DNA of 64,000 nucleotides, taken from positions 20,689,050 to 20,753,049 of the forward strand of contig NC_092700.1 in NCBI RefSeq assembly GCF_964275005.1. The letters run 5' to 3'. Positions 15,651 through 59,319 of the stretch are shown piece by piece. Position 1 is the stretch's first letter. Every line of letters begins with the position of its first letter. A model generated the notes under the pieces. It ran no database searches, was not told where the DNA came from, and worked only from the letters and a program-made list of their open reading frames with translations. The position numbers and the translations under genes are program-made. The stretch is from Diadema setosum (lineage: Eukaryota > Echinodermata > Echinoidea > Diadematoida > Diadematidae).

Positions 15651-16764
15651 CTAGTCTGTAACATTCATGTACATTTCCTCATGGAAAGCTGGTTTTGTGT
15701 CAGCAATGCATGAGTCACGTGTTTTATCCACATTTGCATAAATTCCTTCGTACACCTCAGGGTTTGCTGAGAGAGAGTTTCCACTTGTTTCAATGAACGG
15801 TGCATACAATTGCTCAGGCAATGAAGTTTTTACGTCAACTTTGCGTGTTTTTCGAGTTCTGTCTACATTTACGTACAAGTCTCCACACTTGACTGGTTTC
15901 TCTGCCGAAGATGTCCCCATTGTTTTAGTCACCCGTGCGTAGAGTTCGTCGCTCATCGGGCTTTTTGGGTCGTGCCGGTCATTGATAACATTGAATTCTC
16001 TCACATCTTGAAGAAGAATGTCGATGGAATCTTTCCCAGGATCCAGCAAACTATTTTCACTCGAGTCGAAAACATCAGGGTGATATGGCTCGTTACTGGT
16101 TTCAATATCCTGGGGTACCCCCGGTTCTAGCTGATAGTAAAAAACGTCTTCAGAAGGCACATTTGTTGGGAAACTTATATTGGAAGAGAGGATATCTTCT
16201 CTGCTTTCAGAGTGACAATTTGACAGCGATGTCGGAAAGATAGATAGGGAAGCTAGGTTTTGAACATGTGTTCTGTCTTCATTGAATGAATGATTGATGC
16301 TATCGCGGTCATTGTTATCAAGAATAATTCTGGACTTTGCCCCACCAGGGGATCTAGAGGCAGTTTCTTCCACTCCATTGTTTCTATCGATGTCGACATC
16401 TTGGTAGGTACGGTCCTCATAGCCGTTTTCTGTTTGATCCTGAAACATTACCTCTAAGCCAGTGTATGAGATGTTTAATGACGCGCTGATAGTGGTATCG
16501 ATGTTATTCAGTGAAGAAAATGTGCTCGAGGGCTGGGAAATCCCCGTGGCTATCCCCGCCGCTTCCTGGTGGACGTTATACGAGTTCTCCTCACGAGCCG
16601 TGACGTTTCTTAATGTGTTGCCAGGATGATTTGGGAGATGAAGACCATCTGCATCAGGGTCTGTAACGGAAGTGTTCGATGCAATATGATCGGCTGAGCT
16701 CGGATCTCGATTAGAAGTCTCAACAGGATACATTTGCAACAGCTCGTTCGAAGCTTGTGAGGGT
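15651..16764 (-). CDS. Gene 1 exon 3, tyrosine-rich cytoplasmic tail
   Basis: A single 1114-nt exon that ends with TAG. The acceptor is CATAG, six bases downstream of the position equivalent to the CAG used in genes 2 and 3, where gene 1 reads CAT; the shift keeps the frame. The C-terminal third is a tandem repeat of a 22-23 residue unit. The N-terminal part is rich in Ser, Asn and Asp and looks disordered. A GTAAGT overlaps the stop codon region, but the paralogues also end here, so it is taken as the last exon. Confidence 0.85.
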
Positions 16765-17648
16765 CTATGCATGATATTCAAAGAACGAGAATGGAAGAAT
16801 TTCGATCCATGGTAATCATAATGTTATAACTCTAATGTACATTCTGTAGGTCTGGTAAAAAGAAAACAAAGTTACGTTTACACACAATTATATATTTTGA
16901 TAATATGTATCCTTTTTTTAGACATAACATGCGACATAGGCTTAAAAGTACCATATAAATCGAAGTCATTCGATATAACACTCATCCACGTAGCAATTAA
17001 TGCACTGAAACATCTGCCAACGTATTCATACATTTCAAATTCATTGATTGTATACTGGAAAATACCACGAGAATAACATCGTTAGTGGATGTCGATAAGA
17101 GCTTACTTCTTCAACGCGATTTGTTATCCCCCCACCACCTTTCCCCTCCCTTTTCTTTCCAGACACACACAGAAACATTCAATGTACTGGACCACGTCGA
17201 AACTCACCGTTTTTTGTAATGGTTGCACCAAGCCACGGTGACGATGGCAAGCAATACGAGAAGGACGTACAGAGAGATTTTCAGGTTGTCCACGGTCATC
17301 TTTATGTCTAGATCTCCAGAAACTGAAATATAAATGCAAGGAATTAGAACCTTATTATATAAGGAAGAACAATATGCCATGAAAAATTTGAAGAGGTTTC
17401 CCAAATTTGTGCTGTTGTTGTTATGATTATTTTTTGATGATTTTGCATGTTTTAATCATGACAGCTAGAGGTGATGGAATGAACCAAGATGTCATCAAGA
17501 ACATAATACAGTGAAAAACATTCCTTTTATGCCTCACTGTTTCAGGACCGCTCTATTGTATAATGGAAGAAACGTTAAATCAACAGTCAAAAATGTATAT
17601 ATATCTATGTACATTACAGTATATCTATATAATGTGTATATATATATG

Positions 17649-17688
<40 letters not shown>

Positions 17689-18665
17689 TTAATCTCTGTC
17701 ACACAATCCGTCAAACCAGAAGTGAAAGAAAATGTTTAGATGCCGTTGTTATCCCGAAACAACAGGAATTGTACTTTCCTCATCATGGAACACTTGAATG
17801 CGATCAGCTATGTGTTCCTGATTAACCTCTGCTGCCCCTTATAAGCAAATCAAGGTAGGGAAAACACCCGGTTGTAACTTATTTAGATATATATCAGCAA
17901 CTGCGTATGGGACTTACAAAGTGAACTATAGAAGTGAGAGATAGACTAGGCGCATTTATTTCGCAGTAAAAAAGCACAAAGCTCAATGGACGAATTCTTG
18001 ATAACTGTGGTTTGGAATATATTCAGTTCTTTAACGAGGTACCGATCGCCTATGAAAGACACAGCAGTTTGCCGGGACGTACTCTCACTATGGGCATGTG
18101 AATTAGAACCATTTTTTTTTTAGAACTTCTTTTAAGTCATTAATCCATACTTCTCCGTAACCACTGATACAAAGAAAGAAATCAATATGTCTTTCTATTT
18201 TATAGCTGTCGTATCAATAGAATCTGCACTAGGTGATCAACAGATAAATCGTTAAAGTCCTTCAGGTTTTTGACAATAGTAAGCGGCAAACTTGAGTAAG
18301 GACTGCTCTTTTAATCGTTTACAAACTATGAAGACAAGTGATTTCACACAGTAATGTTTTGTCTCTTCTTAAGAAAGTTATACATACACAAATACAAGTA
18401 GTTCATAATATAGTTACAAAAAGTTCCGTCTGTTATTTCAATTCATTTCAATTCAATCATCTTCGGAGCTGAATACCTGAATTGGGATGATTTTGTACAC
18501 AGGAAAATGACTAGGCTTAATCAGTCAATTGCATCACAAAATTTAAAATTAGCATTATTAAATGAGAAATAAAAGATACGTACATGTCGTATTGCTTTCC
18601 GGAGTTGAGCAAATGAGCAACGGCTGGTAGAGCAAGCAAGAAATAAATAGAACCACTGGAGCCAT
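15651..18665 (-). CDS. Gene 1: membrane protein with short ectodomain and multi-tyrosine tail
   Basis: Coding exons 18584-18665, 17208-17322 and 15651-16764 join in frame (82+115+1114 nt) to 436 residues plus stop. Residues 1-20 or so are a signal peptide, about 20 residues lie outside, 42-60 form one membrane helix, then a basic HYKKR stop-transfer and a ~370-residue cytosolic tail. The tail holds two ITIM-type motifs, ISYTGL (Tyr166) and VFYYQL (Tyr275), then a ladder LYARV, LYVNV, LYAPF, IYANV, MYMNV at Tyr341, 363, 386, 408 and 431. YxN motifs are the known GRB2 SH2 preference. Unlike gene 2, no ectodomain exon was found between the signal and membrane exons. The layout recalls transmembrane adaptors (LAT, PAG), but no homology to them is claimed. 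It is the only intact tail in the cluster. Confidence 0.75.
16765..17207 (-). other. Gene 1 intron 2
   Basis: Bounded by GTGAGT (17202-17207) and the CATAG acceptor after a pyrimidine-rich stretch. No other feature seen. Confidence 0.7.
17208..17322 (-). CDS. Gene 1 exon 2, transmembrane
   Basis: Acceptor TTTCAG and donor GTGAGT bound a 115-nt exon, phase 1 in and phase 2 out. It encodes a short juxtamembrane segment, a helix of about 19 residues (ISLYVLLVLLAIVTVAW) and NHYKKR. It is clearly homologous to the exons at 28558 and 55363. Confidence 0.85.
17323..18583 (-). other. Gene 1 intron 1, no ectodomain exons
   Basis: The part near 17950-18080 is similar to the gene 2 intron near 29600-29680 (shared GAAGAACTGA-type stretch), so this intron is the relic of the gene 2-like stalk-to-membrane intron. 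It holds a (GT)n at 17657-17688. No CUB, SRCR, WSC, Sushi or stalk exon was found. Confidence 0.6.
18584..18665 (-). CDS. Gene 1 exon 1, signal peptide
   Basis: ATG at 18663-18665 opens a 27-residue leader with the hydrophobic core VVLFISCLLYQPLLI, followed by a GTACGT donor in phase 1. The start was chosen because this frame matches the gene 2 leader (shared LLYQPLL). An upstream ATG in another frame is ignored. Confidence 0.75.
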
Positions 18666-18689
18666 TTTTCAGAAATTCTTGTTTCATGA

Positions 18690-19080
18690 CACGCACACTA
18701 AAAGCAAAACTGTATCAGTCTCTCATAAGGCTTAGAATCAGAGGGTAACTCCAACTCGATGAGAAATGCCTCTAGCAGATTGATACACTTCGTTTAACCT
18801 CCAGGTTTGAAAAATAAATGAGATAATAATTATACGTCCAGTTTTAAATGTGGTGTGACTGAAGTTCAGAGTCACTGTGAAATTCTCAAATGCGCAGCGA
18901 AAAAAAAAAAGTTGATATACGCTGGCCTGCTGGTGCAAACTGGAGAAAAAGCGTCAGGACCTGCGTGCGGATCTTCTTCTAAACTCTTTAGCTGCTTGTC
19001 GCTGTGTGAAACTAAGAGTTGGTGTAAGATGTAACGCCTGTCGAATTTCCTACGGCTTCAAGAAACAAGTACGACAGGAC
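18690..19080 (-). promoter_or_regulatory. Gene 1 proximal 5' flank, shared with gene 2
   Basis: Patchy but clear similarity to 41830-42420 upstream of gene 2, including an AACTCGATGAG-like block and a GTGTGAAACTAAGA block. Conservation of non-coding sequence next to both leaders suggests a duplicated promoter or 5' UTR. No convincing TATA box was found. Confidence 0.45.
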
Positions 19081-19851: not shown

Positions 19852-22451
19852 TCATCTAACAAGATGGCTGGACAACCCAAAGTCAGCCAAAACATAGCTG
19901 CATGCAATGGTCATCCATGGGGTCCAGCAGTAGCCTACTTGTAGGTATCGTCAGTGATCGTAGACCGCCTCACCATGCAGCGCTATGCTCCCTAGTCTTT
20001 GCGATGAATGTGAGTGAAGCGGGATCTTTTACGTGGGTGGGTTGTGATCCGAATCTCAGAGGATTTTATGAATAGTGGACTCAGTTGACTTTTAAAAATC
20101 GTGTTGCTTTCTGTTGCATGCACATATCTTTGAACTAGTTTAAAGCTTGGCTTCGGATACCGTCTTCTTTTCAACTTGCACAACAAAATATCATGATCTA
20201 TGGTAATGATTCACTTACTAAAAAAAATAGAAGAATAAAAATAATACAACAGATACCAATAGCTTCAGTTTTATAATGATTCAACAATTATATCATATAA
20301 CTTGATTATAGCATGAGCAGACCAGTGTTATTTCCTCATATCAAATGGTTTAGGGACTACTAATTCATTATCTAAAAAAGAAAGAAATTGTACATTTTTT
20401 CAGTTCTATTCGCTTTTATACTTCTTAGATCATTTTAAATGATGATGTGAACCTGAAGTGATGCTTCGCTTTATAACGCTCCGAGAACTATGTGACACGA
20501 CACATTCCTCTGCTTCTATTCTTGTGGGGGGGGGGGGGGGAGGGTTCGGTGTCATGACGATTGTTTTTCATTTTAATGTGATACCCTTTACTTCGATAGA
20601 ATATTGAAAACAATATCAATTACGACACTTTATCTATTCCTGGGATTAGATAATTTTCAGAAACATCGTCAAATGCAATGGCTTCTATCACACACTGCAT
20701 GTGTATGCATACATAGTTTAAATCTATTGAGTTTACATTGGTTGGGGAATTTTTAATTGGTTCATCTCACAACAATCTTTATGACTGATGGATAGTGCAA
20801 CTGTGTTGGTTTCAGTTTTGAAATGCAATCTAGAGTTAACTGTCAAGAGGCTTTCAGGAGACAGCGGTATTGTGGAGGGATGCCTCCAGCCCCTTGAACA
20901 GGTTTTCGAAATGTCCAAACGATGGACTTCATTCTTTGAAGATGGATGAAGACATGTGCTAGATAAGCAAGTATGATTCATATATTACTACTAATGGTAC
21001 AAGAACTATTTTATACGCAAAACCTGCAAAAATATAGTATAGTTCACATCGTTATGACAGTATGGAGGGCAAGGAAAGATTACACTTAATGCTTCCTTAC
21101 TACGTAGTAACTTGTGACCGAAGAAAAAGAAGTATTTCGTCTAATCCAAATTAGTCTATTGCTATCTATTGTTTATAATATAATCGCATTATACAAGTTA
21201 TACAAATGATGATAATAAGAGGATCTATATGGGTTTCGTTCTGTCGTCATGTCAACACCAAGGGACCCCTTTGGCCTGAAGGTCGCCTAATACATCTCAT
21301 TGTCTTCTGTCTAATACGAGGTTCAAATCAACTGCACCGTCATTGGCTCCTCAAAGATGGAAGATGGTGGGGAAACCCCAGCTTGCATTTTTTTTTGTCG
21401 TTGTTGTTGTTGTTTTGATTGTTTTTCTAACGAGTCAGAGTATCTGAGCTACACCATCACATACTAGTCGACAGTCTGCACATGACAGGACCTCATTTGG
21501 CAAGAAGAGACTGGTACTAATCGTGAAAGTATAGGAGAAGGACTACAAGCCACGCACGACAGGAAATATTGAATGCAATGAAAAAAGAACGTTAAAGAAA
21601 TAAACTCCAAAAGAAAAAGACATATTTCTCTACAGAACGCTCCGATAATGACAAAATCGGGTTAGTAATTAGGAAGACATGATATTTCTAAATTTCACAT
21701 TTTTTTTTCTGAAAACATTAATTTTCTTCACCAGTCGTTGTTAATATTCAAATGAGCGAGTTGACGAGGTCATGCCTTTTTTTTTGTTTGTTTAATGATA
21801 GGGTATGATTCTGTATGATGTTTGTTTGGTCATTTGTCATATTTTATGCCATCTTAATCCGTTTTCCCCCTTTCATCAACCGTGGGAAACATATTCTTAC
21901 GTTTCGAATGGTATTGAAATTTGTATATGTCAACCGGCAATAAGTTTTAGGTTTCCCCCTTAATTTTATATCAAAATTCCGTCTCCTTTTTTCCACTATT
22001 TGAATATATTTCCCTTTTCTATTCTTTTTTTTAATATATAATTGACGGATATGGCATGATAACTAATATGTATTTCCGTTTTATGTTGTGTTGATATCAC
22101 ATTTTCTATTTTTAGCTCTCATGGTTATGTGCATTGATATTATTTACCAACTTTAACATTAAACATTTTTTACTTTCTTGCCCGCTCATCTCGATCTTGC
22201 CATAATTGTTATTCTCTATACACGTACATATACTATCTCCTTATACCTGTTGGGCAATACTCTCACCTATCAGATTTTTTTATTCCCAGGTCTGATGTGT
22301 ATTATGTATTCTTTTATTTTCACGCATGCTAATCCCATCAATGGGTTTGTAATTTCTTTTCTATGATTCTCATGTAAAACAACCTTATCAGCCTTCGAGC
22401 TGCTAGATTGTTATTTTATTTTTTTTTTTATATTTGCCCAATAAACCATAT
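19081..22451. other. Distal 5' flank of gene 1
   Basis: Blocks near 20440-20530, 20830-20960 and 21420-21580 match 43880-43970, 44340-44425 and 51010-51190 upstream of gene 2 in the same order. (GT)n runs lie at 19466-19500 and 19819-19848, and a G14 run at about 20527. No gene seen. Confidence 0.5.
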
Positions 22452-23125
22452 GTGACCCTGCACCTCAAAACAAACAAAAAGTCGCCAGACATGAATTTTT
22501 AGTTAAGACCATAATCTGAAAGAACAGACTTTAAACTTTAAAATGAGGTATAATTCAAATCAAATGGACTCTCCTAACCTATCTAGATATTGGAAAGAAA
22601 GCACAAACTCAGGAAAGGTGTGAACTGAGAAAAGAGGCTCTGAAGTACAGTGTCTATTCAAGAGCTTAAACCTTACCAAACCGTGCTGGCTGTGCGATGA
22701 ATGGGACAGTAAACCACCAGAGTAACAACAATGAAGAGATTATTAGATTAAATTGAAATTAAGCATGCCTCATTAACACATTCTGTCCATAATTAATGCC
22801 AACTTTCAAAGCAGTAGCACTATCCTTTCAAAAGTTATTAGAGTTGAAAGTGAAGAGTGTGGACAAGGTTTTTCAGAAATGAAAAAGGGATTCTAAAGGC
22901 ACACCTAATCACACTATTCTACCAATAATGTTAAAAAAACAAAACCACACTTTCCTGCCCGTTTTATACCAAATTTTAGCATACTGTAAAAGAAGATCCG
23001 CTCTTTCAGAAAATATGAAAAAGTCAAGATTGGATAATGGTTGACCCATTTCACTTTTCAGTCCTCACGCAAAATCAGTGTGTGCGACTTTATGTTTGTT
23101 TTGAGGTGCACGAGGTGACGGTCAC
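22452..23125 (+). mobile_element. MITE family A, copy 2
   Basis: A 674-bp copy with both inverted ends intact and ATAT on each side. High identity to copy 1 over its whole length. Confidence 0.85.
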
Positions 23126-23970: not shown

Positions 23971-23975
23971 TATAT

Positions 23976-25119: not shown

Positions 25120-25440
25120 TCATATGCCTGCGACATTCACGTACATTTCTTTATTCAATGCTGTGAGAAATCTTGTCAGGCATGGACGATTTCCTCGTTT
25201 TGTCCACGCTTGCATACAGCCCATCGCACATTATTGTTTGGCTGGCTAGCAAAGCTGTTCCCAATGTTTTATTTACCCAGGGGTACAGTCCCTCGCTAAT
25301 GGTGATTTTGGTGCCGTGGAGGTCACTGATGTTATCAAGGTCTCCCTCATCATTGCAATCTTTTTCAGGGTTCAGAGAACGACATTCGGTAGTGTTTGAA
25401 AGTGCAATGATTGTAAGGTATAGTGCTAACGTCGGTTAAG
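25120..25440 (-). pseudogene. Relic of a receptor tail exon
   Basis: The minus-strand translation shows a diverged version of the tail ladder: EGLYPWVNKT, then DGLYASVDKTRK, then, after a frame change, EMYVNV. Upstream is a stretch similar to the region before the first ladder tyrosine of gene 1. Membrane and extracellular exons are missing, and a stop precedes the last motif. It is a decayed fourth paralogue, or a detached piece of gene 2. Confidence 0.7.
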
Positions 25441-26645: not shown

Positions 26646-27452
26646 TTATTCTGCGCACAAGCCATCGGGTAATGCTGTTTTAGCGTCAACACTGCGTGCT
26701 TTTCGACTTTTGTCCACTTTTGCATACAATTCTTCGCAAATAGCTGGTTTCGGTGGCAAAGCTGTTCCCCTTGTTTTATTTACACGTGCGTACAGTTCCT
26801 CTCCAATCGGGGTCTTGGTGTCATGGCTCTCAGAGAAGTGATCAAATTCTCTCACATCAGGGAGAAGGCTACTTATGGAATCCTTTCCAGGATTCAGAAA
26901 ACTATATTCACTCGAGTTGAAAACGTCAGGTTGATATGGCCTGTTAGTGGATTCAATTTCCTCAGGTACAAGTCATGCGGATCCAGCGTAAAGTAATACA
27001 CGTCTTCAGAAGGCGCGGCTGTTCGGGAACCTGTATTGGAACAGGAATTACTCTCTTTTCTATTCGAGCAAAGATCAGGCTGGGAAGTCGAAGAAATAGC
27101 TGGGTGAGCTGGGTGGTGAACGTGTGCTCTGCCGTAGTGGAAGGCATGATTGATGTGATCGTAGTCATTGTCTCTTAAGATATTTCTAGACTTGGCAAAA
27201 TCATCAGCTTTGCATGACTCTGCACATTCGTTTTCCGATTCCCCTTTCCCTTGAATAGACACAGATGCATTGCTGGGATCTTGCCTTTGAGTACAAACAC
27301 CGTCAAATGTTTTAGCGACGTTTAGTGAATTGTAACCATTTTCGGTATCTGTAGTGTTCGACGCAACACGGTCGGTCGAGCTCGGATTTTGGTTGGACGT
27401 GTCTACAGGATACATCAGCAATGATTGGTTCAAAGCTTGTGAAGACCTACGT
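26646..27452 (-). pseudogene. Gene 2 tail exon, frameshifted
   Basis: After the acceptor (AATAACAG) the frame begins RRRSSQALNQ and runs to a VYYFTL ITIM-like motif near 27000. A net five-base gain relative to gene 1 near 26965-26975 shifts the frame, and that frame stops near 26894. The old frame still reads well downstream (EELYARVNKT, EELYAKVDKS) and ends at TAA 26646-26648, where the third ladder tyrosine is replaced by Cys. The ladder would thus be two motifs long even without the shift. Confidence 0.75.
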
Positions 27453-27637
27453 CTGTTATTCAGGGAATGATATAAACAGATAGTGATTATTAATCTAATT
27501 ATTACAATAATTATAAACATCTGGTGGATAAAAAAACAAATTGTTTTCGTAATCAGTTCTTTGACCTTACATGCACCAACAGAATCTATGATTTAATATT
27601 ATAATCTATATCATATCACACACAGTCATTTACATTT

Positions 27638-28557: not shown

Positions 28558-28675
28558 CTCTTTTTATAATGGTTGCACCAAGTCACGGAAAGAATGGCAA
28601 GCAAAACGAGAACGACGAACAGAAAGGCTCCAAGGATGTAGCTCACAGTAATGTTCTTGTCCAGATCTCCAGAAA
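28558..28675 (-). CDS. Gene 2 transmembrane exon
   Basis: A 118-nt exon (acceptor TTTCAG, donor GTGAGA), phase 1 in, phase 2 out. It encodes SGDLDKN, a helix of about 20 residues rich in Leu, Val and Phe, and CNHYKKR. Identity to gene 1 is strongest at both ends. Confidence 0.85.
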
Positions 28676-30162
28676 CTGAAATATAACGAAACAAATTAGA
28701 CCCCTGTAAAAAATGTGTAGAGATTTTACAGCAGTATGATATGTTATTTTTCTATTCATAATTTTGCATTTTATGATCATGGCACAAGTGACGATATGAG
28801 ACATAGGATCATATGTGCACAACTGAAGTTCAAGACAGGATGAGAAACGCTTTTTGGTCTTACAGGCAGTCGACTTGTGTATGGAAAAACAAACAAACAA
28901 ACCGAGAAATCAATAATCTACACACACGTACATACTTTAATGTATATGTAACACATACAACAATATACGATACATAGACTAAACCTCTATCACAACATCC
29001 GTCACTTAAGAAAATGTGTTATATGTGAATGTTGTTGTCATCTCATAGCATTAAGTATTCTGCTGTCTTCATCATGGAATATATGGAACACACACTATCC
29101 TCGGTTAATCAATATCAACGTAATAAATATCGTGTCTATTTTCCAGGGGGCAATTTAACCCCCCTGGGAAATCACCCCGGACCCTTGAATCTCTGACCCT
29201 AACTCTATTCCTATTATAGCCCTGGACTTAACCCTTACCCTAACCAAAACTCTAACCATAAACCTATTCCTAACCCTAATCTTTACTCTAATATTATCAC
29301 TAACCAGTGATTAACCCGGGGATCATTGCGGGGGGGGGGGGGGTAATTACCCTGATACGCTAAACATCAACTGTACTATCATAGCATGAATAGATACATG
29401 TACGTGTTCGTGATTGAACTCGGCTGACATGCAGCTAAAGTAGGGAGGGGAAAACATATATGTCACGATCAGTGCTTAATGTCTTCAATAACCATTGAAT
29501 TTAGAGAAAATAATCAAAGAGGGAAAATGGAGAAATGGACTGGACTCATTGGTTTTATCGTACAGACACAATAAGCTCACCAGAAGGAGTAGTAACAACA
29601 GCTGGTTTATGAAACGTAGTCAGTTCTTCAATGGGCCGCTGATTGCCTTTGGAAAACACAACAGATATAAGTTGGTGGGTCTTACACACACTATACAAAT
29701 TGCTTAAGACATGATAATTGCTGTAGCCATAGAACCGAAACGAGATAGAAGATCCTTAGTTTAAATCATTTTTCACAGCTACTTCTCAGCCCGAACTTCT
29801 CAATACCTATTTAGGCTAAGTATACATTAATAATTGCGCACTTTGTTCTATACCTGACTGCTTTATTGCTGTCGTGTATACAGTCACAGTCTGTACTTCC
29901 TGATCAGTGTTTAAGGCTGATGATGTTGTGATCGTAATGGACTACTTGATTTGGGGCTACCCTTTTCAATGATTTACTGATGAATTCATATAGAGACAAA
30001 CGATATCAATAAGCTTATGGAACTGATGAATTCATATAGAGACAAACGATATCAATAAGCTTATGGAACGTTCTATTTCTTAAAAAAAATACAAAAAGAA
30101 AACTACATCCTGAATACGTTAATTCACATATAATTACAAACTGTTAACGTTTTAATACTCAC
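28676..30162 (-). other. Gene 2 intron between stalk and TM
   Basis: Contains MITE B copy 2 and a segment near 29600-29690 similar to the gene 1 intron. No coding exon seen. Confidence 0.5.
29132..29360 (+). mobile_element. MITE family B copy 2
   Basis: The same inverted GGGCAATT / AATTACCC ends and degenerate CCCTAA core as copy 1. The flanks TAAATATC and TAAACATC match at 7 of 8 positions, a slightly diverged 8-bp target duplication. Confidence 0.65.
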
Positions 30163-32093
30163 TTGCGGTCCTGTCTGTAATTTGTGATGGTGTCGTACTT
30201 ATTTCGCTATCGTGCACCACATTCTCTGTAACCAAAAGTGACCAAAAAAAAATGCAGTTGTCCAATTTAGGGCTCACTTCTTAGAGGAGGATCCGGGAAT
30301 TCCGCATAGGGGAGTCGCCTTCACACTCACAAAATTAAGGGGGGGGGGGCGCACGCACCCTCACCATTTTTTTTATTTCTTTTGTTTTAAACAAAAATAA
30401 AGAAGGGCGTGCGCCCCTTTTGATCCGCCACTGCTTTTGCAATGGCTTATTACAGTTTAGATTTCATAAAGACAAATGATTTCCATATAGAATTATGGAC
30501 TTGTTTTCTTGAAAAACAACAACTACACATTACAACCTAAATACGCTAGTTCAAAGTATGAACTTTGTAGTACTTACATGAGGTCCTGTCTATAACTGGT
30601 AATGGTGTCGTACTGATTTCGGTATCCTGCTTCTCATCATCATTACCCAAAATCAAAAATGCAATTGTGTAATTGAGGACTACATTTTTCAGTGACTTAG
30701 ACATAAATCCATAAAGACAAATGATTTCCACATAGGAATATGGACTGTTTTTTTTTTATGTAAAAAAGACACAATGAATCATACAACCTGAATACGTAAG
30801 CTCAAATAATATACCAAGTGTGAACTTTGTAATACTCACTTGCGGTTCTGTCTGTAACTTGTGATGGTGTTGTATTGATTTCGGTATCATGCCTCTCATT
30901 CTCTGTACTTAACCCAAAACCGAAAATGTAATTGTGTAATTTGGGACTCCCTTTTGCAATGACATACAGATTAATATTCATACAGACAAACGATATCCCC
31001 ATGGAACAAAACTACAAATGCAAGCTAAATACGTTAGTTCAAAGTGTAAACGTTCTAGTACTTACCTGAGGTCCTGTTTGTAACTTTTGATGGTACTGTA
31101 CTGATTTCGGTATCATGCTTATCATGTGTAACCGGAAACAAACAAATTGTGCAATGTAGGACTACGTTTTTCATTCACTTACAAATTGAATTCATAAAGA
31201 CAAACGATTTCTGCATAAGATTATGGACTTTTTTTCTTTGAAAAATACACATAAAACCTGAATACATTAACTCCAATAATATATCAGGTGTAAACTTTGT
31301 AATACTCACTTGCGGTCCTGTCTATAACTTGTGATGATGCAGTATTCATTTCGGTATAGTGCCTCTCATTATCTGTGAAAAAAAAAACAACAACAACAAC
31401 GACTGAAGGCAATTGTGCAATTCAGGACTCCCTTTTCAGGGGCTGATACTGGAATTCCGTACAGGGTAGGCGCCTTTACTTTCACAAAATTAAAGAGGAC
31501 CGGCACGCACCCTCCCCATTTCTCTTTATTTATTTTGTTTTAAACAAAACTGAAGCCACTGCTTTTGCAATTACCTACAGTTCAATATTCGTAAAGACAA
31601 AAGATTACCACATAGGGTTATGGACTTCTTCTAAAACACACACACACACACACACTTCACATACAGTACAACCTTAATACGTTAGTTCAAGCGTGAACTT
31701 TGTAGTACCCAGTTGCGGTCCTGTCTATAACTTGTGATGGTGTCGTACTGATGTTCGTATTGTGCCTCTCATTATCTGTAACCCCCCCCCCCCCCCCAAA
31801 AAAAAAAAAAAAAATGCAAGTGTTCAATTTAGGACTACCGTTCTCAATGACTAACAATTTAATATATTATGAAGACAAACAATATCCACAAAGAATTGTG
31901 GACTTTTTTCTTCGATGAAATTACACGTTCAACCTGAATACGTTTGTCAAAATAACATACCAAGTTTATTTATTTTAGTTTTAGGTTATACCAAGTTTAG
32001 TTTACCAAATTTGCAATTTATAATATTCACTAAAGGTCCTGTAAATGATATGTAATGGTGTCGTACTGATTTCGGAATCGTACCTCCCATTTT
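30163..32093 (-). CDS. Gene 2 stalk: array of seven 63-bp mini-exons
   Basis: Seven related exon copies occur at 30163-30225, about 30578-30646, 30840-30902, about 31066-31128, 31310-31372, about 31713-31775 and 32031-32093. Each would encode 21 residues rich in Ser/Thr (core like EISTTPSQITDRTA), phase 1-1, consistent with an O-glycosylated stalk. Copies 1, 3, 5 and 7 have both splice sites. Copies 2 and 4 lack the AG acceptor at the expected place. Copy 6 has lost the GT donor (CT). So functional and damaged exons alternate. One related exon exists in gene 3 at 56212. Confidence 0.75.
30284..30435. mobile_element. MITE family C copy 1 (GGATCC ends)
   Basis: About 150 bp. It shares the GGATCC-GGAATTCC start, a GGGCGCACGCACCC block and a GATCCGCCACTGC end with the full copy at 41996. 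It lies between stalk exons 1 and 2. Confidence 0.75.
31434..31563. mobile_element. MITE family C copy 2 (diverged)
   Basis: Shares GGAATTCCGTACAGG, the CACGCACCCTCCCC block and the GCCACTGCTTTTGCAAT right edge with copy 1. It lies between stalk exons 5 and 6. Confidence 0.6.
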
Positions 32094-33453: not shown

Positions 33454-33675
33454 CATTCATTTCATCGTTGACTGCCTGGCAAGTCGGGACTAACGCGTTC
33501 CAAACCGGGAAGTAAGTCGACCGTCCATGTATTCCCACACACTGCAGTGTCTCGCTACCATTTCACATGAACCCTTCGCCACAAGTAAGAGTCATCTTAG
33601 ATCCAAAGCGCGTGACATTCGAGTCCCAGTGGCCATCAGACACAGGGTCGAGATGTTTGCAAATCCCAACTGAAA
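33454..33675 (-). pseudogene. Gene 2 Sushi/CCP exon with in-frame stop
   Basis: A 222-nt exon, phase 1-1, homologous to the intact gene 3 exon at 57554. It keeps the Sushi spacing (GSKMTLTC, GEGF, TLQC, PTC). However, the second cysteine of the CKHPCP motif is Asp, the Trp before the last Cys block is Arg, and a TGA interrupts the frame right after GEGFM. It is either silently skipped or a null lesion. Confidence 0.75.
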
Positions 33676-34210: not shown

Positions 34211-34471
34211 GGTTAAACAAACAATGGTGTTGCCTTCCGGTTTCAGGTCTCCATTTATGAGTATAGTTCACGCTAGAAATGAAGTTGGCATAATTTTCTG
34301 ATTGATAGCACATGCAGATCCTTTTATGAACAATAGCAATGTCATGGTTTCCGGGTTTTTCTCTGCAGGTGGACACACACTCTCCGTCAGAATTAACGTT
34401 AAATCCAGAAACAAATGCAGCCTGAAAGAAGTGAAGATAGGTGCTCTGGAAGCATCCAAGAAATCCAGGTT
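34211..34471 (-). CDS. Gene 2 WSC-domain exon
   Basis: An 87-codon exon, acceptor ATGCAG and donor GTGAGT, phase 1-1. Cysteine landmarks follow the WSC (carbohydrate-binding) pattern: FLGCF at the start, ECVSTC, ICMCY in the middle and HHCLF at the end. It is the partner of the gene 3 exon at 59050. WSC domains occur in polycystin-1, kremen and fungal sensors, and are thought to bind carbohydrate. Confidence 0.8.
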
Positions 34472-38642: not shown

Positions 38643-38726
38643 CTCTGCATTTAAGTCTCACAGCCTTGTTCGAGGGACACTCAGTTCCTTGAGATAGACA
38701 ATCCTTAACTCTTGAACGCTGGCAAT
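38643..38726 (-). CDS. Gene 2 SRCR exon, second half
   Basis: An 84-nt exon (acceptor AACAG, donor GTAAGA), phase 1-1. It encodes DCQRSRVKDCLSQGTECPSN followed by KAVRLKCR, matching the C-terminal half of a scavenger receptor Cys-rich domain (C..V..C pattern and a final hydrophobic-x-C). Confidence 0.7.
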
Positions 38727-39056: not shown

Positions 39057-39269
39057 CTGTATTGTATGGAAACCACGTTCTGTCCGATGCTGCTACGCTT
39101 GAAATAGGTTGAGTTGAATTATCTTTTACTGCTGGGAAGCCGAGCTCTCTGCAGATTAAATCACCAGCTCTAGGAGTAAAGCCATCATAACATAAATATC
39201 TTCCTGGCTCCAGGACCACTAAGCCATCCAGGGGAGAGGATCTGCTGACCAGCTTTACCGATGGCATTT
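39057..39269 (-). CDS. Gene 2 SRCR exon, first half
   Basis: A 71-codon exon, acceptor TATCAAG and donor GTAACT, phase 1-1. It begins PSVKLVSRSSPLDGLVVL and contains CYDGFTPRAGDLICRELGFP, the signature of the N-terminal half of the SRCR fold. SRCR domains bind microbial and host polyanions and are heavily expanded in echinoderm immune genes. Confidence 0.85.
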
Positions 39270-40954: not shown

Positions 40955-41266
40955 CCTTGTAACATTTCACAATCATCTTGAAATTCGCTGGATATCTATA
41001 TTCCCCTATTTTGGTTACACGCAAGTTAATCTGGTGTGCCAGTGATAAAACAGAGAATAACTGATTCAGAATCAAATTCTCAAATGATCTGTTAGATATT
41101 ACATCCCGTGTACGAAATCTCATCCATTCATTGTTGATAGATTGAATGCCAAGGAGAACTCGCCACCCTATAGGAACCTCTATATCCCAACTGCTGTCGG
41201 CGATGTTTTCTCTATCACACCATATGTTGAGGTCTAGTGGCTTCCCGGAGCAATTGAGAGTGAAAT
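40955..41266 (-). CDS. Gene 2 CUB-like exon
   Basis: A 104-codon exon (acceptor CCTGCAG, donor GTAAGT), phase 1-1. It starts FTLNCSGKPLDLN and contains SSWDIEVPIGWRVLLGIQSI, which matches the W.I..P.G..V.L.F strand pattern of CUB domains, and ends with INLRVTK and FKMIVKC. Fewer cysteines than canonical CUB (three plus one in the leader exon). Assignment to CUB rests on strand pattern only. Confidence 0.6.
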
Positions 41267-41722: not shown

Positions 41723-41807
41723 ACGTCGTGTTGCAATGCGAGGATGAGGAAGTGAGCAACGGCTGGTAGAGCAAGAAACAGGCAATCAACAGGAACACGG
41801 GAGACAT
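41723..41807 (-). CDS. Gene 2 exon 1, signal peptide
   Basis: ATG at 41805-41807 opens a 28-residue leader (core VFLLIACFLLYQPLL), with a GTACGT donor in phase 1. An in-frame ATG six codons upstream could also start it. Homologous to the gene 1 leader. Confidence 0.75.
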
Positions 41808-41829: not shown

Positions 41830-42420
41830 AAAAATTAATTCTATAACACTTCTTCTTCAGCTGTACAATTAAACAGTGACTTCAATTCGATGAGGAATAC
41901 TGGTACCAAAATGTGAAAACTTGTCTTCACCTCCAAGTGGGAAAACATGAAAAAATGCGTCCAGACTTGAATATGGTGTTGAGTAAGGACCACAGCAGGG
42001 GCGGATCCAGGAATTCCGTAAAGAGGGGGCGTGTTTACAATATTAAAGGGGGCGCACGCACCCCTCCCCCATTTTTTTCTTTTTATTTCTATTGTTTCAA
42101 CAAAAAATAAAGGGGGGGCGTGCGCCGGTTGCGGTCCTCCCTGGATCCGCCCCTGCACAGGTAAGTCTTCCAATGCCCTTTCATAAACGTAAGAACTACC
42201 AATTCCGATAAGACTGGGTTGTTCGTGTCATTTAGAGGAAAGGCCCCTGTGCGCAACTGCTTGTCAACTCCCTAGCTGCGTGCGCATCTCCTTGTCAACT
42301 CCCTAGCTGTGTGTAGGTGTGTGAAACTAAGACTTACATGTACGTGTACTAGTATTATAAGGTCTTTCGCAGTACGTCCCTCTCCGGATTCAGGAAAGAG
42401 CTTTACGGAAACTATGCAAG
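41830..42420 (-). promoter_or_regulatory. Gene 2 proximal 5' flank
   Basis: Counterpart of the gene 1 flank at 18690-19080. It is interrupted by MITE family C at 41996-42156, which places a transposon within about 350 bp of the start codon. Confidence 0.4.
41996..42156. mobile_element. MITE family C copy 3 (complete)
   Basis: A 161-bp element with TIRs CAGGGGCGGATCCAGG and, on the complement, CAGGGGCGGATCCAGG. The interior has the GGGCGCACGCACCCC block. Confidence 0.85.
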
Positions 42421-42971: not shown

Positions 42972-44427
42972 TAAGTCACATCAGCACCTCATTTTCCCCC
43001 TAGTTAATGTACAATTTTTCAGGATTGAATACCATACACCGGAAATGATATAATTTCCCAAAAACTTTACACTTGCCTCTTAAAAGCAATATGCAAGGAT
43101 ATGAGAAAAAAAAAACGCATTTGGCAGGCTGACAGAGCAGTCCATGGACCACGGAATGAACGTACTGCCCTTTTCCTATATATGTCTGACTGGAAATGAT
43201 ACACATACTTTTAATCACACTTGCGTGTCTGTGAGATGTGGGCGAGCAAGAGGTACATGTATTGTGGGGGTTCCATCTTATGTTTCGCTTTATTTAGTTA
43301 GGTACTGTGGGTTTAAAATGACATTGTGAGAGTATGTCTATGGGAGAAAACAACGGGGTACTCCTACAATGTCCCTATAGTGCTTGTGTGTGTGTGTCTG
43401 TGTGTGTGCCTATATTTTCGTGTCTGTCTTTCATGTAGGACCACTCTATGCATGTTCTCCTATCATTGAGATTTTGAAGAGATCCTTCTCACGGCTCTTA
43501 CAATTATCTGGTGTGAGAAAAGCGAAAGTAATTTCATTCCCAGCTGTTTCGCTTCCTAATTGAGAGTATTGTTCTAAACAATACTTACAAAACGTATGGA
43601 CTCTGCAATAAAATGGCGATCCTCAACTTGATGAGTAGGCCTAGCTATGCAGTGATCCACGCTCGTCAATCTCCGACATAAACGGAGGGAGGAAAATAAG
43701 AACAAGATAAAGTTTGGCTGCTTCAGGTTTTAGGGTCTGTTTTCCGAGATAATCATTTCATGTCGTCCTGAGTAAGTAGTAAATTCTGTGACAGGGCTGC
43801 CTCATTATTTAAGTTTGTTTCAAATCGAATCTGAATTAAACTTTGGCCTTTCATATTAGTTTAATCATTCATCAAGCTGTGCACGTGGAGTATTACTTCC
43901 TTTTACAACTTTCCGAGAACTGTGTGAGACGATTCAATCCTCTACTTTTATATTCTTGTACTGTTGTTCACCTCTTTTTTGTCACCTTTTCCATTTCATT
44001 CTTCCTGTGATAACCTTTCATAATACATATCTGTATAAATCGAATGATTGCTATGTTTCTTTTCTTTCGTGTGCCCATACAATAACGGAAACGTTGTCAA
44101 GCTCAACACACGCACCTCTTAAACACTTCTCTATTATCGTACGTATACTGACATGAATAACAGTAGTTTCGATAATAGATTTCAATTGCAATCTTATCTG
44201 TGATCATCAGTGGTCGAGAACATCTGAGTAAGACTGTCCTACGATAATTCCCACGCTGAGAGATAATGCTACTTCATTTGTTTCAGTTTTACGTTTTAAA
44301 TAAAATCTGAAATGTTGTGATTGGTTAAACCATGAAAAGATATTAAGGAGGCTGGGGTGTTATGATGACTGATTCCCGAACGAGCCTTTCAAAAGACTTT
44401 CGTCTATCCAAACAATGGATTCTGTAA
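42972..44427. other. Duplicated distal 5' flank of gene 2
   Basis: Contains blocks near 43880-43970 and 44340-44425 that match the gene 1 flank (20440-20530 and 20830-20960). No gene seen. Confidence 0.5.
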
Positions 44428-52045: not shown

Positions 52046-52138
52046 TAAGAAAGGAAGGAGAAATCGGTGCGTGGCTTTGACATCATGATTCCTCTTACTG
52101 TTCCTCCTTTTCGGAAAAGCGCAAGAGTTGAAAAATTG

Positions 52139-52209
52139 GTCTCCGCCGGGACTCGAACCCGGGCCTTTGGCATGGAACGCCAACGCCTTAACCGCTCGGC
52201 CACGGAGAC
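52139..52209 (-). tRNA. tRNA-like gene, anticodon UCC (Gly), copy 1
   Basis: The 71-nt minus-strand sequence folds into a full cloverleaf: 7-bp acceptor GTCTCCG/CGGAGAC, 3-bp D stem GCC/GGC, 5-bp anticodon stem TTGGC/GCCAA with loop GTTCCAT (anticodon TCC), short variable loop, T arm CCGGG/CCCGG with loop TTCGAGT. A and B boxes are intact, and a T5 Pol III terminator follows within five bases. The D arm (GCCGAGCGGTTAAGGC) resembles Ser/Leu tRNAs rather than metazoan tRNA-Gly. It may be a recruited or SINE-related tRNA. Confidence 0.75.
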
Positions 52210-52543
52210 GTCATAGCGGCTCAGGCAGACCCAAGCTCGAATACCTGATGGACCAACCTTTCAACTCTTTGACTTTATGCACACGTTCCTTCTTGGGGCA
52301 GAGAGTTATGAATAACAACCAGCCGCGTGCTTCAGCTGGATCTTCTAATGAGATTCACGTAGCGGTGAATTGGGATAATGTTTTTGTGAAAGAAGTCACC
52401 ACTACAACATCTTTTTGGCTTCTCCTGGATAATTTTGCATATGTGAAAAATAAGAAAGGAAGGAGAAATCGGTGCGTAGCTTTGACATCATTATTCCTCT
52501 TACTGTTCCTCCTTTTCGGAAAAGCGCAAGAGTTGAAAAATTG

Positions 52544-52614
52544 GTCTCCGCCGGGACTCGAACCCGGGCCTTTGGCATGGAACGCCAACGCCTTAACCGC
52601 TCGGCCACGGAGAC
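52544..52614 (-). tRNA. tRNA-like gene, anticodon UCC (Gly), copy 2
   Basis: Identical in the 71-nt body to copy 1, 405 bp away, in the second tandem unit, also followed by a T run. On the plus strand it gives rise to an artificial PPGLEPGPLAWNAN frame. Confidence 0.75.
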
Positions 52615-53446: not shown

Positions 53447-54988
53447 TTACATGTTTGTGATATTCATGTACATTCCCTTATTGAACACTGGTTTTGTGTC
53501 AGCAGTGCAATTAAGAGTCACTGGTTTTGTCCACTTTTGTACAAAGCTTTTCACACATCAATCGGTCGGCTGACAAAGATGGTCCTTTCGTTTCATACAC
53601 CCGTGCGCACAATCCCTGGTCGGTGCTTTCATTGCTTCAATATTGCATGCTTTTCGGGTTTTATCCACCTTAACATACAACCCTTCGCACTTTTTTGGTT
53701 TCACTGGCAAAGTTTCTCCCCTTGTTTTATCAAGGAGGTTTTATAAATGGAGTTCCAACTGGCTGTAATTATTCAAACAGTTGTCAGATTTCTATTGATG
53801 TACGAAAGAATTCCACAGGTGCACTTGTGCCTTTGATGATCGATGTTCGACGCCGCCGTCTTGCTGAGCAATTTGATTCATTTTGAACATTATCATAATA
53901 TTGGCCATATTTTGCTCATTTATTTATTAAATGAAATGAAATTTCAATAAATGGAAAAAGCATATAAAACAAAAGTCAATTCCGTCCAGAAATTTGCGCA
54001 AAAGTGTAAATCAGAGCTGTATCATGTGAAAATGTTTAAAACTGCACCATCCTGGAAAGCTGGTTTTATCACTTTTCAGCTTAATTTCCACAAATGAGTT
54101 AATATGGAATCATCTTGAAGTATAATTCTTTATCAATAGATATATCAGATTAGTGCCCGGGTATGCCCAGTCGAGTGATTTTCATCTTCATTTCAGCATT
54201 TTTTGCTCTATTTTTATTCGCGCATCCTCGTGTCTGTACCACCTACCTTTTATAAGAAGGGATAGCGAAAAGTGTACCATCACAAAGACATTTCTTCCTT
54301 TCAAGGTGGCTGGTAATTATGCAGTGAGACACAAGCCAATTGTCTTCGTATCTGCGCGGCAGATCCTGTTTGGCACATGCTTCAAATATTTATGAGCGGC
54401 GGCTTCGAACATCTAGCAAAGGAAATAAGACGGTTGTGACTCTATGATTTTATTCACATGTGCGTACAGTTCTTCGCTCACTGACGTCTTCAAATTCTGT
54501 CACACCAGGGAGAAGGCTATCGATTCAATCTCTTTCAGTATTAACTTAGTAAACTATATTCACTCTAGTCGAAAAACGTCAGGGCAATTTAGCCTGTTCA
54601 GGTCTATTAAGCCGTGAGGTACCCCCGGATCTAGCTGATGGTAAAAACGATTTAAAAGGGGCATCTGTAGAGAAATCGAGGACTGAGATGGATGAGATGG
54701 CTTGTGAACGTGTGCTCTGCTGTCATGGAAGGCATGATTGATGTGATCGTGGTCATCGTCCCTTATGATATTTCTACACTTGAAAAAATCGCAAAACTGG
54801 CATGATTTTGTGAATTCCTTTTCCAGCTCCCCTTCCGCATAGACACAGAGACGATTCTGGCTTCCTGCCTTTAACTACAAACACCGTCAGATTCACCGGC
54901 CGATCTCGGATTTCGGTTGTAAGTGTCTACAGAATACATATCATGTTGGCTGTCGTTTGGCTGGTTTGAAGCGTGTGAAGGACTTCGT
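53447..54988 (-). pseudogene. Gene 3 tail exon, decayed and interrupted
   Basis: It starts after GTAACAG with RRSPSHASNQ and resembles the gene 2 tail, but meets a TAA about 50 codons in. Further motifs survive as fossils: EELYAHVNK before the insertion, EGLYVKVDKTRK after it, and a final MYMNIT with stop TAA at 53447-53449. Confidence 0.75.
53731..54453. mobile_element. 723-bp insertion in gene 3 tail
   Basis: It is defined by comparison with gene 2: the tail reading breaks inside VNKT and resumes intact on the other side, with TTTTAT duplicated at the borders (53725-53730 and 54448-54453). The inserted sequence has no recognised domain or TIRs. Confidence 0.6.
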
Positions 54989-55291
54989 CTGTTACCCGAA
55001 GAAAACAATTGAGATTAAAACAACTGTAATTTAGTAATTGTGGCTAAAATTCTCATGAACTGTAAGAGTCGATTTTCGTAAACAAGTTCATTAGATCCAA
55101 CATATACGTACACCGTACACCGTAGCGGTCTAATGGTTAAAAAAAAAAATACCACTCAAAAGCATTTACGTTTTCATGCATTGCAACACAAGAAATCATA
55201 TTAAGTTAACATAGTAGATACATTTTATGATTGGAAGTATGGCAACGTCACAAAAATTGCGGATGCCTGCAAGAACTTATGGATGCGCAGC

Positions 55292-55362: not shown

Positions 55363-55477
55363 CTTTTCTTGTGATGCCTGTACCAAGCCACAGAAAGGAC
55401 GACAAGTGATATGACATACAGAAAGGTTCCCAGGGTGTAAAGGCCTACAGTCATATCTATTTCAACATGATCAGACC
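55363..55477 (-). CDS. Gene 3 transmembrane exon
   Basis: A 115-nt exon (acceptor TTTCAG, donor GTGCGA), phase 1 in, phase 2 out. It encodes a helix GLYTLGTFLYVISLVVLSVA and WYRHHKKR. Same architecture as in genes 1 and 2. Confidence 0.85.
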
Positions 55478-56211: not shown

Positions 56212-56280
56212 TTGATATTCTTGAAGTGCTGTCTCTTTGTGATGGTGTCGTGCTGATTTCTGCATTGTGCTTCTCCTTAC
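56212..56280 (-). CDS. Gene 3 stalk mini-exon
   Basis: A 69-nt exon (acceptor CTAAAAG, donor GTGAGT), phase 1-1. It encodes a Ser/Thr-rich segment with EISTTPSQRDSTSRIS, homologous to the 63-bp exons of gene 2. Only one copy was found. Confidence 0.7.
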
Positions 56281-56511
56281 CTTTTAGCAAACGCACACAA
56301 AATGAATACATAAACGAGATTCAATGGAATAAGAAGCAAACAGACGGCTCTGGTGTTGCAAACTGTAATATACCTTCTTTTTTTGCTTCTAAAAAAATAG
56401 AAAGCGTCCCGGAGAGAGGGATTTTCTCAGGTACATTATCAAAGCAACATATTGTATCTTCAATAGTTTTTGCACTTCATAGCCAAAGGTCGTATATCCT
56501 TATGGTAGGCG

Positions 56512-57553: not shown

Positions 57554-57772
57554 CGTTTGTTACATTTCCGGCTGCCAAGCAAGACGGGACTGACGCGTTC
57601 CAAACCGGGAAGTATGTCGACCATCCAGGTCGTCCACACTGCAGTGTCGCTCTGTCATTTAGCGTGAAACCTTCGTCACAAGTAAGAGTCACCTTGGATC
57701 CAAAGCTCGTGTTATTAGAATCCCAATAACCATCAGACACAGGGCAAGGATGCTTACAAAATCCGACAGAAA
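57554..57772 (-). CDS. Gene 3 Sushi/CCP exon
   Basis: A 73-codon exon, phase 1-1, donor GTTTGT. It has four Sushi cysteines plus the extra pair in FCKHPCP, the GSKVTLTC and DEGFTL blocks, LQCGRPGW and the closing PSC. CCP modules mediate protein binding in complement and lectin receptors. Confidence 0.8.
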
Positions 57773-58154
57773 CTTTAGATAGAACAGAAAAGTTGCGATT
57801 TCGAATGACTATAAATCTCAAATAACGAAAGAATGCAAAAAAAAAAAAAGAATAAAGGAGCAAACGAAATTCCAAAGTCGTAGATATATATAACGGCAGT
57901 TGAAATTAACTTTTTCGCCCAAATCATTTGATGATATCGCTCCTGTGAACATTTTGCCCCATGACCTATGTGATCACCAAAAAAAAAAAAAAAAAAACGA
58001 CCTACATTATTAATGAAGAAAGAAAGAAAGGAGATGGTGTGAACTATATTAAAAATAGTTCCGTGACTATTGTTCCTCAAACTATTGCAGTAAATGAAAA
58101 CCACATCTATTTCCCCCGTCTCTGAGTACGGGAAGAAAGTGTAAGGATTCGGGG

Positions 58155-58494
58155 TTAAAAGACAAGTTCACCTTCATTATACTCTTATTATGCATTGAGA
58201 GAAAACAGCAATATTGACAGAAAACATCAGTAAAAATTTTTAAGAAAATTGGACAATCAGTTCAAAAGTTATGAATGGATAAGAAGACTACTACAGCCTG
58301 TGATGTCACATGCGTAGAACAGTAGGACTTATATAGAGAAAATGTAAAGAAAAAATAAAATATTTTAACTTTTCTAGCATAGTTAAAGAGCACTTGACTT
58401 GCTTCTTTCAGAAGGCAGGGGGATAATGTTATCCTTAATAAACGTCATTAACAAATCGAGGGAATGCGTACATTTCTTTAAAAAAAAAAATGTG

Positions 58495-58539
<45 letters not shown>

Positions 58540-58764
58540 TGTAAGTGTACATTGTGACATTCTCTTTATAATTTCCTTATATCGTTCTACGCGTCATCAT
58601 AAATGATAATCTGTAGTAGTTTTATCATGCAGTAGAGACTGCGCAGAAACTTCAAACCTTTTGATCGGATTGTCTGTTTTTCCTCAAACATTCAGTGATG
58701 CATCCCGCTAATATTGCTGCACTCACTCAATCCCCATGTATATGAAGGTGAGCTTGCCCTTTAA
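58155..58764. mobile_element. MITE with TTAAAGGGCAAG ends
   Basis: The left end TTAAAAGACAAGTTCACCTT and the complement of the right end TTAAAGGGCAAGCTCACCTT are TIRs about 610 bp apart, with terminal TTAA. It contains (TA)n at 58498-58538. Confidence 0.8.
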
Positions 58765-59049
58765 GCAATATTGTAATTTGTCGTTTACTTCCATACTCAA
58801 TTTTTGTTTCAGTGTTTAAGCAATAGCAGTATCAAAACTTATATAACAGTGATGATAATGCCTGTCGAGGTACTTTATCCTATAAGCAGTAAAAGTACTA
58901 GGTGTTGTCCAAAGACGAAAGATCAGTTTCAATACTGCTGACATGTTTTCAACACAATCGAACATAAAGCTATTTGCAACGATTATGAGAGAATAATGAG
59001 AACAGAAGCAGAGTCTTCCCGTCATACGTCAAATGCTCTTGATACTCAC

Positions 59050-59319
59050 GGTTAAACAAACAGTGGGCCTTGCTGCCGGATTCTAGGCTGGTTTGAGGTA
59101 TCCAAGAGTGAGCACAAGTCACGCCAGAAATGAAGTTGGTATATTCTTCTGATCGAAAACATCTGCACCTCATTTCATCAGTCATAACAATATCAGGATT
59201 TTCGGGTTTCCCTCTACACGTCGACACACACTCTTCGTCAGAATAAACGTTAAAGCCAAGGACACTTGAAGCCAGAGAGATGTAACGATGGTCCGGGTAG
59301 CACCCACGGAATCCAGGTT
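59050..59319 (-). CDS. Gene 3 WSC-domain exon
   Basis: A 90-codon exon (acceptor ACGCAG, donor GTGAGT), phase 1-1. FRGCY, EECVSTC, RCRCF, VTC and AHCLF mark the WSC cysteines. Closely similar to the gene 2 exon, with one more cysteine (VTC), closer to the canonical eight. Confidence 0.85.

Follow-up and report, generated by a model that had tools for sequence, protein, structure and literature searches.

A probably decaying branch of a Diadema receptor family with two exchangeable tyrosine-rich tails

The 64,000-nucleotide stretch of the Diadema setosum genome analysed here (the window) probably carries a local branch, now decaying, of a Diadema receptor family that uses two exchangeable tails. 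We put the probability of this reading at about 0.6. Three copies of one gene lie on the minus strand: A (59.3-53.4 kb), B (41.8-25.2 kb), and C (18.7-15.65 kb). As read here, these are not three working receptors; they are three incomplete copies placed side by side, two of them broken. Copies A and B are disabled, and C keeps an open frame but seems to have lost its ectodomain.

Three incomplete copies on one strand

Exon limits were placed by hand using GT/AG sites and the reading frame (Table 1). On this basis the ectodomain exons have phase 1-1 and the leader exons finish in phase 1; a phase 1-2 membrane exon is followed by a tyrosine-rich tail, which occupies one exon in the window. There are three membrane exons, three tails, and one tail relic. 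The tail frame stays free of stops for 390 codons; in 60 windows simulated with a Markov-1 model the longest such run was 182 codons, which places the observed frame beyond chance. A second tail type, found among the homologs described below, was not detected in the window at E<=1e-3 (tblastn with 34 homolog proteins).

Table 1. Features of the three copies and the tail relic, in positions of the window (P numbers are homologous proteins)
Copy	Feature	Position	Strand	Match or remark
A	WSC-like exon, phase 1-1, open	59050..59319	-	best family match P0009 54%; fold leans to Kremen WSC
A	Sushi exon, phase 1-1, open	57554..57772	-	Pfam Sushi 36.3 bits (cut-off 20.7); P0003 78%
A	Stalk mini-exon	56212..56280	-	short blastp match only
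A	Transmembrane exon, phase 1-2	55363..55477	-	P0003 69%
A	Tail, disabled	53450..54992	-	in-frame TAA and frameshifts
B	Upstream block common to C, TATA-like, putative promoter	43878..43959	-	76% over 82 columns
B	Upstream block common to C, putative 5' UTR	42276..42335	-	82% over 60 nt
B	Leader exon (signal peptide by reading), ends phase 1	41723..41807	-	P0004 68%
B	CUB-like exon, phase 1-1	40955..41266	-	no Pfam match; model pLDDT 67
B	SRCR exon 1, phase 1-1	39057..39269	-	Pfam and family match
B	SRCR exon 2, phase 1-1	38643..38726	-	Pfam and family match
B	WSC-like exon, open	34211..34471	-	P0008 64%; no Pfam match
B	Sushi exon	33454..33675	-	in-frame TGA (nonsense codon)
B	Seven tandem stalk mini-exons, mostly 63 nt	30163..32093	-	both splice sites in 4/7
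B	Second stalk exon, phase 1-1	29581..29646	-	weak match to P0001; limits read from sequence
B	Transmembrane exon, phase 1-2	28558..28675	-	family match
B	Tail	26649..27475	-	frameshift near 26974
	Tail relic	25154..25396	-	family match E 7e-10
C	Upstream block common to B	20446..20525	-
C	Upstream block common to B	18961..19020	-
C	Leader exon, ends phase 1	18584..18665	-	P0004 71%
C	Transmembrane exon, phase 1-2	17208..17322	-	family match
C	Tail exon including stop, no disablement	15651..16764	-	P0003 47%

Residues created at the exon joins by split codons recur among the homologs: C[RQ]EP[GA]F at the SRCR/WSC join in 23 of 34, and [FY][NDS]LS at the WSC/Sushi join in 19 of 34. Together with the splice sites and frame, they bear out the minus-strand exons, their order, and the phase 1-1 ectodomain modules proposed in an earlier sequence-only reading of this DNA. 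That reading also described three genes and a relic with common leader, membrane, and tail exons. Three copies are indeed present, and membrane exons, tails, and relic agree, but leaders were found in B and C only and the reading was silent on two of the three being broken. The mini-exon stalk it described is likewise present, but in three of the seven B mini-exons at least one splice site is missing.

In copy A, the tail carries two frameshifts within its last ~95 codons in addition to the stop codon, and the Sushi exon has a weak donor (GTTTGT). No A leader was found within the window; it could sit past the window end.

Copy C differs in that its product would be headless. When its leader, membrane, and tail exons are joined, with GT/AG kept, the frame continues without a stop and predicts a protein of 436 amino acids with three YxN motifs and the tail ladder YARV, YVNV, YAPF, YANV, YMNV. 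Only 1.26 kb separates leader from membrane exon. No ectodomain was recognised in this gap by tblastn at E<=10 with the 34 proteins, which gave short pieces only (best E 0.033 for a tail stretch, ~0.5 for the best ectodomain stretch), or by a listing of phase 1-1 exons, which held no candidate with GTRAG-, GTACG-, or GTGAG-type donors. If expressed, the product would amount to a small type-1 tail anchored in the membrane and would formally resemble a transmembrane adaptor. The tails nearest to that of C, in D. setosum and in D. antillarum alike, are 47% identical to it, a lower figure than the 69-84% of close tail pairs between those species. Agreement of C with the family is 0.57 at tyrosine columns (13) versus 0.38 at other columns (337), and several tyrosines conserved in the family are missing.

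These missing tyrosines, the lack of a recognised ectodomain exon, and the disablements of A and B would all suit a window of pseudogenes only, in which C is also a relic, its open frame having survived by chance and yielding no product. We give this alternative somewhat less than an even chance: the in-frame splicing of 436 stop-free codons, the GT/AG kept at the exon boundaries, and a C tail free of disablements next to two broken copies all argue against it. It is also conceivable, and in our view quite improbable, that, through long-range splicing, the B ectodomain or that of another upstream gene takes the C membrane and tail exons as an alternative 3' end, one locus thereby giving several receptor forms. 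The exons are on the same strand and phase-compatible, the B tail is frameshifted where the C tail is intact, and isoform names are given to some D. antillarum models. However, C owns a leader and the two upstream blocks common to B, as expected of a separate gene, and a B-C fusion must skip the Sushi exon of B because of its nonsense codon.

Domain architecture of the Diadema family

The window copies belong to a wider family. Searches over a limited candidate list returned 34 'uncharacterized' homologs, all from D. setosum or D. antillarum, and most carry SRCR and Sushi domains; within that list the family is so far confined to Diadema. These proteins support the earlier suggestion of a receptor family that is clustered, divergent, and built by exon shuffling. 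Pieced together from B and the homologs, full members read as type I membrane proteins with, in order, a signal peptide, a CUB-like domain, a two-exon SRCR domain, a WSC-like domain, at least one Sushi domain, a Thr-rich mini-exon stalk, a single membrane span, and finally a long cytoplasmic tail.

Not all of the domain names given by the sequence-only reading withstood profile searches. In a Pfam scan run on the stop-free exons of the window, SRCR and Sushi did: the joined two-exon SRCR of B reaches 37.3 bits for SRCR_2 (cut-off 27) and falls short for SRCR itself (24.1; cut-off 26.1), and the Sushi exon of A passes its cut-off. Across members, an SRCR domain matches in 29 of 31 at E<=1, although P0004 scores 25.0, under the cut-off; Sushi matches in 30 of 31 at E<=1. 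The SRCR of B has six cysteines across its two exons, a form which we take to be group A. WSC stayed below its cut-off in the A exon (15.4 against 27.8 bits), did not match the B exon, and gave weak matches in 6 of 31 members (best E 0.029); in fold and profile comparisons the WSC-like exon has Kremen as its best match, and its modelled fold leans to the Kremen WSC domain. No Pfam family matched the CUB-like exon of B at E<=1. CUB domains head the fold matches of its model, and other jelly rolls follow closely. An NCBIfam search of 5 of the 34 members gave one match, at chance level.

In light of the window, public gene models may need correcting. Sixteen of the 34 start at a Met aligned with the end of the CUB-like exon, so the leader and CUB-like exons seen in B are probably absent from those models. 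Two models, P0026 and P0034, have no clear membrane span. We infer an immune role for the family. Diadema mass mortalities have been linked to a ciliate, which makes the receptor repertoire of practical interest.

Two tails and their exchange

Two unrelated tyrosine-rich tails divide the 34 homologs 24 to 10. Type 1 has a YxxV ladder, YxN sites, and upstream ITIM-like sites; type 2 has YMDM, YLVL, and YESI. Yxx[VIL] and ITIM motifs occur at about three times their frequency in shuffles. For [ILVS]xYxx[LVI], 58 motifs were counted versus 19.3 expected, in 30 of 35 tails (with P0026 and P0034 tails corrected to exclude ectodomain). The tail had been called ITIM-like, which holds for upstream tyrosines (V[FY]Y[FY]QL in 15/19, YSLL in 9/15, YNSL in 10/24) but not for the ladder, where none of the well-conserved tyrosines fits [ILVS]xYxx[LVI]. 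ITAMs number 3 in the 35 tails, against 1.2 expected.

Ectodomains and tails appear to have been exchanged repeatedly, as the trees support. Tail types require 8 changes on the ectodomain tree versus 8.7-8.8 in shuffles, so tails are spread across it as if at random. Within one species, opposite-tailed protein models have ectodomains 94.3% (P0017/P0028) and 96.6% (P0019/P0029) identical, with tails that cannot be aligned end to end; in D. setosum, opposite-tail sister pairs range from 94% down to 69%. Constraining same-tail clades gave p-AU values of 0.028 and 0.033, for groups picked after the first tree, and one sister fork had support of 88/70 in one tree and was not resolved in the other. 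Support for gene conversion of ectodomains within a species is modest.

Could single genes instead carry both tail types as alternative 3' exons, with the 94-97% pairs being haplotypes of one gene rather than paired genes? A 3-6% ectodomain difference may fit sea-urchin heterozygosity, and the label isoform X2 is attached to both P0019 and P0029. We consider this unlikely: members of a pair share their longest-contig figure (48.8 Mb for P0017/P0028; 5.65 Mb for P0019/P0029), a pattern that fits two loci on a single contig, and the D. setosum sister pairs are too distant at their low end to be haplotypes.

Under the decaying-branch reading, the ectodomain would bind a surface ligand. The type-1 tail may recruit GRB2-like and SHP-like SH2 proteins, and the type-2 tail PI3K-like and other SH2 proteins. 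A shared ectodomain on two tails with differing SH2 partners would then link one recognition specificity to two pathways, as paired receptors do.

Comparison with known systems

Kremen, a kringle-WSC-CUB membrane protein, provides the best fold and profile match of the WSC-like exon, near which the family also has a CUB-like domain; the Diadema family differs in showing no kringle, having SRCR and Sushi instead, and bearing a long tyrosine-rich tail. Predicted C has the form of the adaptors LAT, SIT, and DAP10, with a very short ectodomain, one membrane span, and YVNV, YANV, and YMNV. Unlike them, C would derive from a receptor gene by ectodomain loss and has a leader; we claim no homology, and the Pfam SIT matches in 4 of 31 members (best E 0.09) do not rise above chance.

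A study of Strongylocentrotus purpuratus describes hundreds of SRCR genes, many in tandem clusters, and counts Sushi (38), WSC (36), and CUB (35) among them (PMC10855680). The association of SRCR with these three domains in urchins has already been published, and the earlier label 'undescribed' holds only in part; a limited literature search found no published work on the tail or on the Diadema members. Both groups comprise tandem-clustered echinoid SRCR genes. The Diadema family is set apart by its recurrent module order, an SRCR domain divided between two phase 1-1 exons, and two tyrosine tails that can be exchanged. These parallels would also fit an ordinary expansion, specific to this lineage, of scavenger receptors in the SRCR superfamily whose tails have no signalling consequence, which we find doubtful given the motif excess over shuffles and the closer family match of the C tyrosine columns.

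Vertebrate paired receptors (SIRP, PILR, KIR, Ly49, and Siglec), best known from immune cells, likewise place near-identical ectodomains on differing tails, are clustered, and show signs of gene conversion, a process with modest support in Diadema. The Diadema domains are other ones, and both Diadema tails are long and tyrosine-rich. As a tentative idea, one we would not yet favour, the family could be an invertebrate paired-receptor system, in which modular ectodomains are continually recombined with two tails, gene conversion keeps opposite-tailed partners alike, and headless C acts as an adaptor or SH2 sink. If so, this echinoderm family would represent an independent origin of the paired-receptor design and a test of why that design evolves.

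Exon anatomy and state of the three copies

One modular gene is present three times on the minus strand of the window, as seen from reading frames, splice sites and self-comparison. The fullest copy, B, has a leader, a CUB-like exon, a two-exon SRCR, a WSC-like exon, Sushi, a stalk of seven mini-exons and one second stalk exon, a membrane exon and a tail. WSC-like, Sushi, stalk, membrane and tail exons are seen in copy A, whose further upstream exons could lie past the window end. Copy C shows a leader, membrane exon and tail, and shares two short blocks 5' of the leader with B. With exon limits hand-picked to suit GT/AG sites and frame, extracellular exons read as phase 1-1, and each of the three membrane exons finishes in phase 2. 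Weak donors (GTTTGT, GTCTGT) follow the Sushi exons. Residues of split codons at exon joins are found again among 34 homologous Diadema proteins (C[RQ]EP[GA]F in 23/34; [FY][NDS]LS in 19/34).

Sushi (copy A) and SRCR_2 (copy B, exons joined) pass Pfam cut-offs; WSC stays under its cut-off in window exons, and the CUB-like exon has no Pfam match. In 31 of the 34 homologs (P0001, P0002 and P0012 excluded), matches at E<=1 number 30 for Sushi, 29 for SRCR_2 and six for WSC. Kremen1 accounts for four of the five PDB matches to a ten-segment WSC-like profile (E 0.08-0.12, not significant alone). Kremen is also best for the predicted WSC-like fold (pLDDT 78), with scores tied with HGF N-domains. The CUB-like exon model has nine strands at low confidence; CUB domains match it best, with other jelly rolls close. 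We therefore write “WSC-like” and “CUB-like”.

The tail of copy C lies in a 390-codon stop-free frame, against a longest minus-strand frame of 182 in 60 Markov-1 simulated windows. Frameshift-aware alignment to the homolog P0003 gives no breaks in this tail, one frameshift near 26974 in that of B (aligned part 27334-26649), and two in that of A (within aligned part 53734-53450). There is also an in-frame TAA in the early tail of A and an in-frame TGA in the Sushi exon of B, and three of the seven stalk mini-exons of B have lost a splice site. The sequence-only reading, a cluster of undescribed exon-shuffled receptors with shared tyrosine-ladder tails, was largely right in anatomy; the working genes it implied are contradicted by the stops and frameshifts in A and B.

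No ectodomain exon is recognisable in the 1.26 kb between leader and membrane exon of copy C, and direct leader-to-membrane splicing keeps frame, giving a predicted 436 residues. Tail dN/dS for C versus B is 0.48 [0.29-0.71] and 0.44 [0.26-0.81] in two pieces, and 0.36-0.79, with wide intervals, for the remaining copy pairs. These ratios show constraint in the past, not necessarily today.

Both tRNA-Gly genes lie on a tandem duplication (spacing 405 bases, 96% identity). Two of the three dispersed repeat copies sit between B and C.

Other features in the window
Feature	Position	Strand	Remark
tRNA-Gly (tcc)	52138-52209	-	first of two
tRNA-Gly (tcc)	52543-52614	-	second of two
Dispersed repeat, three copies	775-1464, 22447-23112, 23974-24509		84-89% alike
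Weak reverse transcriptase match	1631-2149	+	19.3 bits vs cut-off 29.6
Stretch whose end resembles a non-LTR retrotransposon C-terminus	62669-63070	-	by reading; no Pfam match; upstream of copy A

Relatives in Diadema

The family is real. Of 1,535 candidates for a tail query, two proteins matched, both from D. antillarum; a composite query, scored against the 7,996 candidates with most words in common, added 32. All of these homologs (27 D. setosum, seven D. antillarum) carry the name “uncharacterized protein”, preceded in two cases by LOW QUALITY PROTEIN. Of the 27 D. setosum proteins, 14 are listed with a longest contig of 48.8 Mb and 7 with one of 37.9 Mb. Searched against the window (tblastn, E<=1e-3), the homologs recover leaders, CUB-like, SRCR, WSC-like, Sushi, membrane and tail exons and two stalk mini-exons, with no match elsewhere; the remaining stalk exons have just short, weaker matches.

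Sixteen of the 34 models are probably short of two exons, because their start Met aligns with the CUB-like exon end. In P0012, retroelement domains (PF00665, PF17919 and PF17921) precede a receptor with a type-2 tail; this D. setosum gene model is a fusion or an annotation artefact. The WSC-like segment was not found in P0013 and P0030-P0034, where SRCR joins Sushi directly, as phase 1-1 exons would allow. P0016 and P0024, one per species with 80% ectodomain identity, form a subfamily whose ladder tail is divergent. Both contain Sushi in multiple repeats, four by reading.

Two tail types on one ectodomain tree

Of greater interest are the family's exchangeable tails. Ten of the 34 members have a different (type-2) tail, assigned by the patterns YMDM, YMEM or GYLVLE; the remaining 24 are type 1, and the two types give weak, partial alignments only. 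The tail label requires eight changes on the ectodomain tree (32 rows, as P0001 and P0002 lack an ectodomain; P0012 was shortened by 500 residues for tree and tail analyses), against a mean of 8.7-8.8 for shuffled labels. A single type-2 clade is rejected (p-AU 3e-56).

Six sister pairs have opposite tails, including one cross-species pair (P0010/P0027). Ectodomains of opposite-tail partners are 94.3% identical in P0017/P0028 (D. setosum) and 96.6% in P0019/P0029 (D. antillarum). The same-tail pairs between species have ectodomains 93.6% and 91.4% identical and tails 82% alike. Trees grouping same-tail ectodomains are disfavoured (p 0.028 and 0.033, for groups defined once the first tree was known). 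The fork joining P0017 and P0028, with support 88/70 in the large tree, does not resolve in the smaller tree. The simplest account of these sequences is within-species ectodomain gene conversion between paired genes; haplotypes or alternative splicing are a less probable source of the near-identical pairs.

Both tail types hold many tyrosine motifs. In counts that come from related sequences, the 25 type-1 tails (24 homologs and copy C) have 190 Yxx[VIL], 46 ITIM, 51 YxN and 5 YxxM (shuffle expectation 55, 14, 26 and 6). The ten type-2 tails have 44, 12, 24 and 16 (expectation 20, 5, 8 and 2), YMDM having been among the patterns by which type 2 was selected. ITIM occurs at none of the well-conserved tyrosines of the type-1 ladder and, at five upstream columns, in 15/19, 9/15, 10/24, 4/16 and 1/14. 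Copy C has kept the ladder and the best upstream ITIM site and lost some other upstream sites. The proposed receptor function rests on motif and pattern.

On the two protein searches above, the family is so far known from Diadema alone. The main text of PMC10855680 contains no mention of Diadema, ITIM, tyrosine or coelomocyte, and that of PMC13419447, which treats echinoid SRCR copy numbers, none of WSC or Sushi. Sea urchin SRCR genes are described in tandem clusters (PMC10855680, section 2.5), with 38 Sushi, 36 WSC and 35 CUB among them (PMC10855680).
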